Shown here one piece after another: positions 35,750-40,656 of a stretch of 64,000 nucleotides of DNA (position 1 is the stretch's first letter; each line of letters begins with the position of its first letter). The stretch comes from Acidobacteriota bacterium (lineage in GTDB: Bacteria; Acidobacteriota; Holophagae; Holophagales; Holophagaceae), in NCBI GenBank assembly GCA_016192145.1, contig JACPUT010000018.1, positions 124,001 to 188,000 of the forward strand, given 5' to 3'. Below the pieces are notes generated by a model. That model saw nothing but the letters and a program-made list of their open reading frames with translations. It did not search any database and was not told where the DNA came from. The position numbers were made by a program, and so were the translations under genes.

Positions 35750-36970
35750 TCAGACCTTGAAGAGCGCCTCTTCGCGATCCAGCAGCTTGGTGGCCAGGGC
35801 CACGGCGGCGGCGGCGAGGACGATGGTCATTCCCAGCGCCAGGGTGTATTCCCAGGCCACGAACTGCTCGCCGAACAGCTTGCGGATGGAGAGGGAGACG
35901 TTGAGGATGGGCACCCAGGGAAGGGCGGCCATCTTCTCCACGCCCGGGGCTGAGGAGAACATGCCGAGCATCATGACGATGAAGATCCCGGGGGTCATGG
36001 ACATGGTGGCTTCCCGGGTGTTCCGGGCCTGGGTGCCCAGCAGCACGATGATCGCGGAGAACAGCAAGCCCATGGGGATCACGAGGAACAGGGCCAGGAG
36101 GAGGTTGGCTGGATTGGCCAGGTTCGCCATGGCGGAGACTTGGGGGGCCGTGCTGGCCGCCGCCTGAGTGGAACTGGCGATCTCCTTGCTGAGGGAAGCG
36201 AAGCCCAGGAACCAGCCCGCCAGGGAGGCGACGGCGCTGCCGAGGCCGACGGTGAAGACCATGAGGAGCTTGCCGTAGATGATGGATTTCCGGCTGAGGC
36301 GGGTCGAGAGGAGGCTGAGAAGCGTGCCACGCTCCTTTTCACCCGCGGTGACGTAGGCGCCGTGCTGCATGGCTCCCGCGTACATCACGATGATGAGGAG
36401 GTAGGGCAGCCAGGCGCCCATGATCTTGCCCATCTCCCGGGCCTTGTCGCTGGCGTTCTGTTCCACCAGCTTGGCGGGCTCGGCCAGCATGCTGGAGGCA
36501 TGGGCGCTCTCCAGCCGGGCTTTCACCCAAGCCTGATTCTGTGATTCCAGGGCCTTCTTTAGGCGCTTGAGGGCCAGTTCGGAGGCCCGCTCGCTCTCAT
36601 CGACCTGGGTGGTGAGGGTGAAGGTCTCTTGGCGGGCCAGCTTGGCAGCGGCTTCGGGATCCACATCGAGGATGAGGTCCAGCTTCTGATCGAGAAGGGC
36701 CTTCTTCAGATCTCCTTCGGGTGCCTCGACGAGCTCGAATTCCTTGGTGCCTTTCTGCAGCAGGGGACGGATGGCCGAGGTCGGATCGATGAGCACCACG
36801 CGGCTGGGCCGGCCCTTCTGTTTATCCGAGTCGCCCTTCGCGAGCTTGGTCATCATCGTGAAGATGGTGGGATAGAGGATCAGCGGAAGGATGAAGGTGA
36901 AGAACACCGTCTTCCGATCCTTGGAGAATTCGAGCATTTCCTTGCGGAAGATGAGCCAGGTTCCGCGCAT
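35750..36970 (-). CDS. ABC-2 type transporter permease, NatB-like
   Basis: A 406-residue membrane protein. Residues 20-40 form the first membrane helix (FFTFILPLILYPTIF), then comes a large extracytoplasmic domain of about 150 residues, then six helices beginning LPYLLIIVMYAGAM and including the family block AYVTAGEKERGTLLSLLSTR. This layout matches NatB-type exporters of sodium or other small substrates. The start at 36970 lies one base after the stop of the ATPase gene. Confidence 0.85.
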   Translation of the reverse strand: MRGTWLIFRKEMLEFSKDRKTVFFTFILPLILYPTIFTMMTKLAKGDSDKQKGRPSRVVLIDPTSAIRPLLQKGTKEFELVEAPEGDLKKALLDQKLDLILDVDPEAAAKLARQETFTLTTQVDESERASELALKRLKKALESQNQAWVKARLESAHASSMLAEPAKLVEQNASDKAREMGKIMGAWLPYLLIIVMYAGAMQHGAYVTAGEKERGTLLSLLSTRLSRKSIIYGKLLMVFTVGLGSAVASLAGWFLGFASLSKEIASSTQAAASTAPQVSAMANLANPANLLLALFLVIPMGLLFSAIIVLLGTQARNTREATMSMTPGIFIVMMLGMFSSAPGVEKMAALPWVPILNVSLSIRKLFGEQFVAWEYTLALGMTIVLAAAAVALATKLLDREEALFKV

Positions 36971-36971
36971 C

Positions 36972-37727
36972 TCAGGCCTCCTTGCCATTGGCGAGCTGGA
37001 AGAAGACCTCGTCCAGAGTCCCCACGTTGAATCGCTGCAGCAGCTCCCTCGGCGGTGCATCCCCGTGGAGCTGGCCGTCGAAGATGATGCCGACGCGATC
37101 ACAGATCTTCTCGACCATGGGCATCACGTGGGTGGAGACGATCACGGTGCGGCCCTCGTCCCGCATGATGCGGAGGAGATCCAGCACGGTCTTGGCCGTG
37201 AGCACGTCCAGGCCCGTGGTGGGCTCGTCGAAGATCACCACCTTGGGATCGTGGAGCAGGGCCCTCGCGATGCTGAGTTTCTGCTTCTGCCCGGAGGAGA
37301 ACCCGTCGACCTTCACATCGGCGAAATCGCCCATGCCGAACCGGTCCATGAGGTGCAGGCCCCGGCGTTCCGCCGTGAGCGGCTCCACGCCCTGAAACTC
37401 GCCGAAGAGTCGGAGGATCTCCCGAGGCGTGAACCGGTCATAGACGCTCATGTCCGTGGAGAGGAAGGCCAGCTTGCCGCGCACCCCCTCCGGCTCCGCC
37501 TTGGTATCCATGCCGCACACCTGGATGCTGCCCTGATCCGGGAGCATGAGCGAGGCGATCATGCGCAGGGTGGTGCTCTTGCCGGCGCCGTTGGGGCCCA
37601 GCAGGCCGTAAATCTCCCCGGGCTTCACCGAGAAGGAGATGCCGCGTACGGCCTCGATGCGCTTGGGTTTGCGGTTTTTCTTGTCTTTGACGGTGAACGC
37701 TTTGTGGACGTTCCGAAGCTCGATCAT
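36972..37727 (-). CDS. ABC transporter ATP-binding protein, NatA-like
   Basis: The 251-residue ATPase has Walker A GLLGPNGAGKST, the signature GFSSGQKQKLSIARAL, Walker B VVIFDEPTTGLD and the switch His in VSTHVM. It pairs with the downstream permease to form an ABC-2 exporter. A basic loop, KDKKNRKPKR, lies between the first two strands. The two genes form an operon with GGAGAGAG before the ATG. Confidence 0.88.
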   Translation of the reverse strand: MIELRNVHKAFTVKDKKNRKPKRIEAVRGISFSVKPGEIYGLLGPNGAGKSTTLRMIASLMLPDQGSIQVCGMDTKAEPEGVRGKLAFLSTDMSVYDRFTPREILRLFGEFQGVEPLTAERRGLHLMDRFGMGDFADVKVDGFSSGQKQKLSIARALLHDPKVVIFDEPTTGLDVLTAKTVLDLLRIMRDEGRTVIVSTHVMPMVEKICDRVGIIFDGQLHGDAPPRELLQRFNVGTLDEVFFQLANGKEA

Positions 37728-38717: not shown

Positions 38718-38786
38718 GAAGGCTCCGAAAGACGAAGCTCCAGTTTGACATGTTCTCGGGAATTCCCAGGCGGAGCGCGTTCCCCC

Positions 38787-39101
38787 TCAGGTCCCCAGCG
38801 CCTTTCGGAGCTGAGTCTGGTAGGCCTCGAGTGCATGCCGACCTTCCTCGGTAATGCGAAACGTCGTGACGGGCAGCCTGCCTCGGAACGTCTTCAGCGT
38901 CTCGAGGTAACCCGCACCTTCCAGCTTTTGGGTGTGGGAGGAAAGGTTGCCCTTGGTCAACCCGAGCACCTTCTGGAGGAAGAGGAATTCCACTTCTTCC
39001 GCGGCTGCCAGCACGGTGAGGATGGCGAGGCGGGCCGGCTCATGGACCACTCGGTCGATTTCGAGGATGGAATGGAGCTGGGTCTCCTGTCGCTTGCTCA
39101 A
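38787..39101 (-). CDS. Winged-helix transcriptional regulator, TTG start
   Basis: A 104-residue DNA-binding protein with a MarR/PadR-like winged helix: VVHEPARLAILTVLAAAEEV, LQKVLGLTKGNLSSHTQKLE (recognition helix) and the wing FRITEEGRHALEAY. I choose TTG at 39101 because GGAGG lies five bases before it; the codon overlaps the upstream stop as TTGA. It is third in an operon with two paralogous membrane proteins and is a natural candidate to bind the palindrome in the operon promoter. Confidence 0.8.
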   Translation of the reverse strand: MSKRQETQLHSILEIDRVVHEPARLAILTVLAAAEEVEFLFLQKVLGLTKGNLSSHTQKLEGAGYLETLKTFRGRLPVTTFRITEEGRHALEAYQTQLRKALGT

Positions 39102-39856
39102 GGAGCCTCCAGGGCCCGCAGCTCCCGCCGCAGCTGCAGGTAGCGGAGGTGCTGGGCGAAGCCCATCCCGATGGCCACCGGGATCATGGCGATCAACAGG
39201 GGAATGAGGACCCAGCCCAGGTAGCCCCTCCAGAGCACCGGATTCCAGTAAGACGCCAAGGTCATCAGGGCCATGGGGGTCCAGACCATGCATTCCTGCC
39301 AACCCCGCACCCGGGCCCAGCCCAACCCGGGCAAGGCCCAACAAGCCGTCAGGCCGAGCGTGAGTTCGAAGGGCGACATGTGCTGGCCCAATTCCCCACC
39401 CGAAAACCACACGGCCATGAGCGGAATGGTGAATCCTGCGAGGATGAGGGACACCCTTGACCCTCCACGTATCCAAGCCGAAGTCCGGATCGGCTCCGGC
39501 TCCACCAGCCCGAAAGAATGGTAAAGCCGGGTCCGTAGCCAATCCTTTCCCAAGACCCAGGAAAGGGGCACGAGCGAGAGCAGGATGGGCCGGCATTGAT
39601 CCAGGAAATAGACCCAACCCCTCCAGGCGTGAACCTGCGCCGTGGCGGCTGTCATGGGGTGAGGGTAGGCCCGATCCAGGTGAACGGCCAGGGCGCCCAG
39701 GGCCACCCGATGGCCCACCAGCAGGATTAGCAGGAGTCCTCCCCAGACGAGGGGAAGGCCGCCCTCATCCCGCGTCCAGGCCGCATAGCGGCGCGTGAGA
39801 TCGGTGAGGCTGTCCAGGTTTTTGGGATTGATTTTCAACGCGTCTCCGGAGTTCAT
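39098..39856 (-). CDS. Membrane protein, paralog of its upstream neighbour
   Basis: A 252-residue protein with about six transmembrane helices. It shares with the adjacent gene the start motif LTDLTRRYAAWTRDEGGLPL, a VLGKD segment after the third helix, SPFELTLGLTACWALPGLGW and the C-terminal QHLRYLQLRRELRALE. No family is recognised. The ATG at 39856 overlaps the upstream stop (ATGA). Confidence 0.7.
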   Translation of the reverse strand: MNSGDALKINPKNLDSLTDLTRRYAAWTRDEGGLPLVWGGLLLILLVGHRVALGALAVHLDRAYPHPMTAATAQVHAWRGWVYFLDQCRPILLSLVPLSWVLGKDWLRTRLYHSFGLVEPEPIRTSAWIRGGSRVSLILAGFTIPLMAVWFSGGELGQHMSPFELTLGLTACWALPGLGWARVRGWQECMVWTPMALMTLASYWNPVLWRGYLGWVLIPLLIAMIPVAIGMGFAQHLRYLQLRRELRALEAP

Positions 39857-40605
39857 GAAACCTCCAGGGTCAAGAGCTCCCGACGCAGGTTCCGGAACCG
39901 GAGGTGTTGCACACACCCCAGCCCGATGGCCGCGGGAGCGACGAGGAAGATGTACAGCAGTACGAGCACCAGGGGCGCGCCCAGGTAGGTGATGCGCGAG
40001 GCCATGGGCGTCCATAGAAAGAGGAGGGATATCAGCGCCATGGGGGCCCAGACCAGGTTCTCAAGCCAGCCTCGAACCCGCGTCCAGCCCAGCCACGGCA
40101 AGGCCCAACAGGCCGTCAGACCCAAGATCACCTCAAAAGGGGACAACCGTAGGAAAAGCTCTCCACCATTGTCCAGGGCCGCGAGGATCGGGATGCAAAC
40201 GGCGGCCAGGAGGATCAGCAGCCGGGTGCCCCGCTGAACCCAGATCGACGCGTGGCTGAACTCGGGTTCAACGACCCCGAGGATCTGATAGCGGCTTGCG
40301 CGGAAGGCATCCTTGCCCAACACCCAGGCCAGCGGAAGGAGCACCGCGACCACGGGGTGGACCTGATTTAGGAAATAGGGCCATCCCTTCCAGCCATGGA
40401 TCACCGCGGAGCTCGGCTCCATGGGAGTGGGATGGGTGCGTTGCAGTGCGTAGGCCAGGAAGAGGAGGCCCACCCTGAGGCCCACCTGCAAGGCGAGGGT
40501 GAGTCCGCCCCAGGCCAGGGGGAGGCCACCTTCCTCGCGGCCCCACGCTGCATAGCGACGGGTGAGGTCGGACAGTTGCTGGAGTCTGCCAGTGTCTGGG
40601 TGCAT
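39853..40605 (-). CDS. Membrane protein, first gene of a palindrome-controlled operon
   Basis: A 250-residue six-helix membrane protein paralogous to the next gene: LSDLTRRYAAWGREEGGLPL, WVLGKDAFRASRY, SPFEVILGLTACWALPWLGW and QHLRFRNLRRELLTLE match block by block. The two probably arose by tandem duplication and may form a heteromer. GAGG precedes the ATG at 40605. A TTGACA-type promoter with an embedded palindrome lies directly upstream. Function is unknown. Confidence 0.7.
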   Translation of the reverse strand: MHPDTGRLQQLSDLTRRYAAWGREEGGLPLAWGGLTLALQVGLRVGLLFLAYALQRTHPTPMEPSSAVIHGWKGWPYFLNQVHPVVAVLLPLAWVLGKDAFRASRYQILGVVEPEFSHASIWVQRGTRLLILLAAVCIPILAALDNGGELFLRLSPFEVILGLTACWALPWLGWTRVRGWLENLVWAPMALISLLFLWTPMASRITYLGAPLVLVLLYIFLVAPAAIGLGCVQHLRFRNLRRELLTLEVS

Positions 40606-40627
40606 GGGGGCCTCTGGATGTGCAGAC

Positions 40628-40656
40628 AAGTTTGCAGTGCAAACTGTTCTTGTCAA
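40628..40656 (-). promoter_or_regulatory. Promoter with a perfect 17-base palindromic operator
   Basis: On the minus strand TTGACA (40656-40651) is followed 17 bases later by AAACTT (40633-40628), a weak -10. Between and over them lies AGTTTGCA-G-TGCAAACT (40629-40645), perfect 8-bp arms around one base. A dimeric regulator bound here would block RNA polymerase. The start codon of the first membrane-protein gene is 23 bases downstream. Confidence 0.6.

Follow-up and report, generated by a model that had tools for sequence, protein, structure and literature searches.

The window, by which we mean the whole stretch of 64,000 nucleotides analysed here, carries on its minus strand three tightly packed genes and, ahead of them, a palindrome lying across what looks like their promoter. 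The initial annotation read this locus as an autoregulated membrane stress or signal device and recognised no described family in it. The locus raises two questions: whether the palindrome serves as the operator of the small regulator encoded last in the operon, and what the two membrane proteins encoded before it do for that regulator.

A three-gene operon behind a palindrome

The elements of the locus are listed below.

40651..40656, minus strand: -35 element TTGACA, read from the sequence; TTGAC stands here in 22 of 27 Holophagaceae operators
40629..40634, minus strand: inferred weak -10 hexamer CAAACT after a spacer of 16 bp, within the right arm of the palindrome
40629..40645, no strand: perfect 17-bp palindrome AGTTTGCA-N-TGCAAACT, putative operator core; the only site of the genome with at most two mismatches
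40624..40650, no strand: extended 27-bp putative operator with imperfect outer arms, conserved at homologous loci
39853..40605, minus strand: mem1, 250 aa with six membrane helices, unmatched in Pfam at E<=1
39098..39856, minus strand: mem2, 252 aa, paralog of mem1, with an ATGA overlap with mem1
38787..39101, minus strand: winged-helix regulator, 104 aa; its TTG start overlaps the mem2 stop (TTGA)

The overlap of the three genes by four bases each was borne out on the minus strand, the mem1/mem2 junction reading ATGA and the mem2/regulator junction TTGA, and a purine-rich stretch resembling a ribosome-binding site precedes mem1, mem2 and the regulator alike. The first two genes are indeed tandem paralogs (53% identity over 245 aligned positions), and the AlphaFold2 model of mem1 (pLDDT 86.7, pTM 0.82) comprises an N-terminal helix, the six membrane-length helices that had been announced and a long C-terminal helix. 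The description of the operon as self-contained also holds: the whole genome has one gene of the regulator's family, HTH_34, and one site for the palindrome.

The palindrome is not significant in itself, and we rejected that argument: the window contains four perfect 8+1+8 palindromes, against a mean of 2.1 and a maximum of 6 in 20 mononucleotide shuffles. We count it as real because it is unique in the genome at up to two mismatches and conserved at homologous loci. Indeed, a search of the 3.8 Mb genome for further copies returned none within two mismatches beyond the operon's own, and 40624..40650 is the single site of the window to reach 10 bits with the operator matrix described below. The claim that the 17 bases fill the spacer and the -10 of a TTGACA promoter stands as to the palindrome and the TTGACA, but the palindrome overlies only 11 of the 16 spacer bases, together with the -10, and the latter is weak, CAAACT agreeing with the consensus at three of six positions. 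A scan for a strict sigma-70 consensus did not call the promoter at 40629-40656.

A named regulator family and a nameless membrane family

That the third gene encodes a small winged-helix protein is confirmed by its match to the Pfam family PF13601, HTH_34 (85 bits against a cut-off of 27, E 4.2e-24), and by its predicted structure (pLDDT 89.0), whose top PDB match is 1ub9 (TM 0.85/0.88, rmsd 1.6); by sequence the regulator matches 1ub9 with an E of 8.3e-9. HTH_34 ranks best among the domain families, HTH_5 scoring 16.8 bits, under its cut-off of 22, and a weak PADLOC match to Csa3 (30.9 bits) was set aside as a reflection of the common winged helix. The protein consists of a single DNA-binding domain, which leaves no space for a separate sensing domain, and it has no cysteine, as is the case for 62 of the best 80 of its 349 relatives, the other 18 having at least one. 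The failure to recognise a described family hence applies to the membrane proteins, which have no Pfam or NCBIfam match above cut-off, but not to the regulator, which belongs to a named domain family.

Neither mem1 nor mem2 matches any Pfam model at E<=1; NCBIfam returned one sub-threshold model only, and PADLOC none over its cut-off. For their relatives, the Pfam and NCBIfam matches are scattered, weak and confined to single members, the best being PF13796 'Sensor' (E 9e-5, one of the 16 members of group A8). Fold searches with the mem1 model gave a best Foldseek E of 0.16, with none at or below 0.001, and a best VIA-align Z of 7.4, to generic helical bundles, while a tBLASTn-style scan of the named genomes with mem1 alone returned 53 candidate stretches with no relative among them. 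Profiles of the membrane partners are related to one another to varying degrees (all E values being for single pairs): the window-type profile matches that of the Xanthomonad, Deinococcales and Myxococcales partners (hhalign 99.8%, E 1.8e-28), and the latter matches the Chloroflexota/Acidobacteria type (95%, E 3e-8) and, weakly, the Hydrogenedentota type (37%, E 4e-4).

Conservation within the membrane family is unevenly distributed along the protein. With cytoplasmic, helical and external boundaries that we set from the model, the four segments assigned to the cytoplasm average about 2.0 bits, versus 1.0-1.2 in the external loops; and the 26 most conserved positions divide into 17 in the cytoplasmic-assigned segments, nine in helices and none in external loops. 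The conserved residues on the cytoplasmic side include Y18, Y106, R178 and H234. If the modelled topology is right, such a conserved face agrees with a partner that is met in the cytoplasm, and the repressor is the simplest candidate for that partner.

The same site precedes homologous operons

The proposal that the palindrome is an operator gains support from the presence of the same site upstream of homologous operons. In the window's genus and in another genus of the family it lies shortly before the membrane gene, and it is present at 27 of 30 Holophagaceae loci, the window included. At two of the three others it was found farther upstream, ahead of a TraB/GumN gene in L012 and likewise displaced in L013 (the same locus as L045); the third, L020, is cut by a contig end. 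The named set L039-L062, which overlaps both the Holophagaceae set and the family genomes, has the site at 23 of its 24 loci. An early reading of L039 as a locus without a membrane gene, and hence without an operator, was rejected, as the contig end cuts the membrane gene there.

The exact 17-mer, present in one of 396 sampled genomes of the phylum (the window's own), proved too strict a pattern, and a degenerate core and a matrix were used instead. Of 77 family genomes, 22 have the core, GTTTGYANTRCAAAC, in a single copy each, and at 21 of these 22 sites an HTH_34 operon follows downstream; the reversed pattern, as a control, occurs in one of the 77. The sole core site elsewhere (L130, in G067) lies upstream of a MarR gene, keeps the core only and scores 11.7, and was judged unrelated.

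The 27-bp matrix was derived from 23 distinct Holophagaceae operators, so that matches within Holophagaceae arise partly by construction. The regulator profile retrieved 349 relatives; we retained the best 80 in order of regulator similarity, and the lower-ranked 56 of these (L063-L118) include one MAG of the window's own genus (L086). At 39 of the 56 loci the matrix reaches at least 10 bits, a level attained by 200 permuted palindromic matrices in 15 of 11,200 locus maxima. Judged by record titles, from which all phylum labels are taken and many of which denote MAGs, the 39 loci span about eight phyla, and include Acidobacteria, Deinococcales, Myxococcales, Chloroflexota, an Acidimicrobiia MAG, WOR-3, Verrucomicrobia and Gammaproteobacteria. 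Cultured strains of Rhodanobacter, Luteimonas, Lysobacter, Stenotrophomonas and Ornatilinea are among them. TTGAC lies just upstream of the site in 20 of the 39; in nine more the site comes just after a TAnnAT or GAYAAT hexamer, as though placed over the transcription start; and these simple patterns detect neither promoter hexamer in the other 10.

The 17 loci scoring under 10 bits comprise 15 of the Hydrogenedentota-type subfamily (L074, L077, L078, L081, L084, L085, L091, L094, L095, L099-L101, L103, L110 and L118), together with L066, where the expected place scores 5.4 bits, and L105, which is cut by a contig end. The Hydrogenedentota-type loci keep both the membrane pairing and the KGNLSSH recognition helix, and no palindrome common to the 15 was found among them by eye or by script.

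Six further Holophagaceae HTH_34 genes (L174-L179), all with six-helix partners, make up a second class. The palindrome AGANNACTCTGNNNTNCAGAGTNNTCT stands at five of these six loci, behind a TTGAC- or TTGCG-like hexamer, in a count whose fit is not independent evidence, the pattern having been written from the same loci. The recognition helix of this class reads LSDGNLGAHLLKLE, versus L(T/S/N)KGNLSSH--KLE in the window-type regulators; judging by these letters, repressor and putative operator have changed together. Several of the second-class loci also have an extra short gene first in the operon.

Pairing of membrane gene and regulator

The pairing of membrane and winged-helix genes recurs in other genomes. 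Among the best 80 of the 349 regulator relatives, 75 loci have a membrane gene beside the regulator by a strict rule, which demands a product of 150-300 aa with at least three hydrophobic segments, encoded adjacently and on the same strand. The five unpaired loci comprise a frameshift (L070), a wider gap (L075) and three contig edges (L039, L044 and L053). Across the 77 family genomes, the membrane profile is found in 31, all of them within the 35 that have the regulator (hypergeometric 1.6e-17, phylogeny ignored). As for the four regulator genomes without it, the locus meets a contig edge in G028, and G032, G061 and G070 have different six-helix partners.

The arrangement of the pair is variable. 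The membrane gene comes first in the window's genus and the regulator first in Geothrix, and there are one to four membrane copies per regulator. In a WOR-3 MAG (L083, 1087-4330), tandem membrane ORFs, apparently four copies, lie between operator and regulator. In G005 (L187, about 1334-1480), an operator of 41.1 bits is accompanied by a regulator start fused into the end of a membrane gene. This is a decayed module, and the module is therefore dispensable.

Attached genes and the neighbouring uppP

At some loci further genes are attached to the pair. Among the 35 downstream ORFs listed for L063-L118, we picked 15 for looking like real genes and scanned them against Pfam; four belong to the PF00144 beta-lactamase family, five are M23 peptidases, four are ABC ATPases, one is a TPR protein and one has no match. 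Within the family, G052 has an ABC ATPase gene after the regulator and G059 a TraB/GumN gene first. That the attached genes are mostly envelope-related suggests an envelope signal.

A gene of undecaprenyl-phosphate recycling could be taken for another such attachment. The gene that follows on the same strand is uppP (BacA, PF02673) in 41 of 54 overlapping Holophagaceae rows, at a distance of 36-84 bp from the module (155 in L009), which speaks for a reading in which the Holophagaceae operon serves this recycling, with uppP as co-transcribed cargo. We consider that reading very improbable, since in five of the six module-lacking genomes checked uppP adjoins a threonine aldolase gene, in four of the six a TGGCACACT-like element, recognised by eye, lies ahead of it, and uppP is not seen at L011 and L012, relatives outside the uppP site. 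Because uppP adjoins threonine aldolase when the module is missing, and seemingly has a promoter of its own, we do not count it as cargo, a role that we downgraded on the evidence from the module-lacking genomes; it seems to be a neighbour of long standing. In the window, TGTCAAACT stands ahead of uppP (38742-38750, minus strand); it resembles TGGCACACT and is perhaps uppP's own promoter. Genes for an ABC ATPase and an ABC-2 permease lie downstream of uppP on the same strand (35750-37727).

How the module may work

It is very probable, from the position and conservation of the site, that the operon is autorepressed via the 27-bp operator. The HTH_34 protein would be the cognate repressor of the promoter-overlapping 27-bp palindrome and keep the operon low and, in the window's genome, it would control its own operon only. 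The six-helix protein would be the sensor and probably a protective effector too. An envelope-acting compound or disturbance would engage it from the membrane side, and the conserved cytoplasmic surface of the engaged protein would then bind the repressor and take it off the DNA. Removal of the repressor would give more membrane protein and, in other phyla, more of the attached effector gene's product as well. We place the signal with the membrane partner because the regulator is a single bare domain free of cysteine and the cytoplasmic face of the partner is conserved. Release of the repressor by a membrane sensor is the mechanism that assumes least, and we give it about an even chance. The best explanation as a whole, drawn by analogy, would be an autorepressed sensor operon akin to SdpI/SdpR with an unrelated membrane partner, and our confidence in it is evenly balanced.

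Co-inheritance and translational coupling would equally follow from a purely effector role of the membrane protein. In that case the HTH_34 repressor itself could sense a small molecule or a lipid and leave the DNA, the six-helix protein acting in export, lipid handling or immunity. The best structural matches of the regulator include MarR, PadR and ArsR proteins that share its fold, some of them solved with ligands, and the genes attached in other phyla (PF00144, M23, ABC ATPase) are effector-like. Against this stand the single short domain, free of cysteine in the window's regulator, the few charged residues in several membrane helices and the lack of any transporter family match, and we regard a ligand-sensing repressor as a serious but rather unlikely alternative. 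It is more improbable still that the six-helix protein is a membrane-tethered corepressor, which keeps the repressor active, lets go on signal and whose loss derepresses the operon. The coupled genes and the conserved cytoplasmic face are the anatomy that this arrangement would have, as does our best explanation, but with it the ratio of repressor to membrane protein should be constant, whereas a regulator is accompanied by anything from one to four membrane copies.

Our preferred reading, a membrane sensor that releases its repressor, can be extended beyond the window. The module could represent a deep and multi-phylum family of membrane sensors and autorepressors, convergent with SdpRI, with one 27-bp operator code in about eight phyla and at least one diverged specificity class; its six-helix receptor and protector would remove the repressor, and an optional and exchangeable third gene would serve envelope defence or remodelling. 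We offer this generalisation tentatively, with limited confidence. A search of the literature found no description of the membrane/repressor pair or of the operator, and the module has the look of a membrane sensing device that controls itself, is widespread and has apparently gone undescribed. For a six-helix family without a name, this supplies a candidate for the cognate repressor, the sequence of an operator and a direct way of assaying it with a reporter. Homologous operons of the culturable Stenotrophomonas, Rhodanobacter, Luteimonas, Lysobacter and Geothrix have almost the same operator in front of them, so that these bacteria could serve in a screen for the inducing signal, and the two classes of operator, each with its own recognition helix, constitute a natural specificity switch to test.

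Comparison with known systems

The regulator is closest to HTH_34 and to PH1061, the protein of 1ub9: it exceeds the PF13601 cut-off, and its predicted fold is alike. The 1ub9 protein differs in being archaeal and is annotated as hypothetical; a literature search for its operator or for a membrane partner found no description. The ArsR, MarR and PadR repressors share a related fold with the regulator and match it in sequence below threshold, but it falls under all their Pfam cut-offs and, being free of cysteine, has no evident metal or thiol site.

The nearest parallel in organisation is SdpRI of Bacillus subtilis, in which, according to PMC1626106, SdpI sequesters the autorepressor SdpR at the membrane; SdpI serves as both receptor and immunity protein. 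In both systems a short operon encodes a small winged-helix autorepressor (a putative one in our case) together with a membrane protein of six helices, and an operator over the promoter is an inferred further likeness. The parts are nevertheless different: the membrane proteins compared with eight SdpI proteins give hhalign probabilities of 0.4% and 0.2% and have no match to PF13630 (SdpI) at E<=1, the regulator is of the HTH_34 type whereas SdpR-type regulators are ArsR HTH_5, and gene order and copy number vary in the module described here. A true SdpI gene exists elsewhere in the window's genome (L135, G000:C7 around 563391-563579; 62.6 bits against a cut-off of 28.2), directly behind an ORF that reads by eye like ArsR, and the two form a genuine SdpRI-type pair. 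By analogy, the module may well work as SdpRI does, a proposition with about equal weight on either side, through a membrane partner that profile comparison indicates to be unrelated to SdpI.
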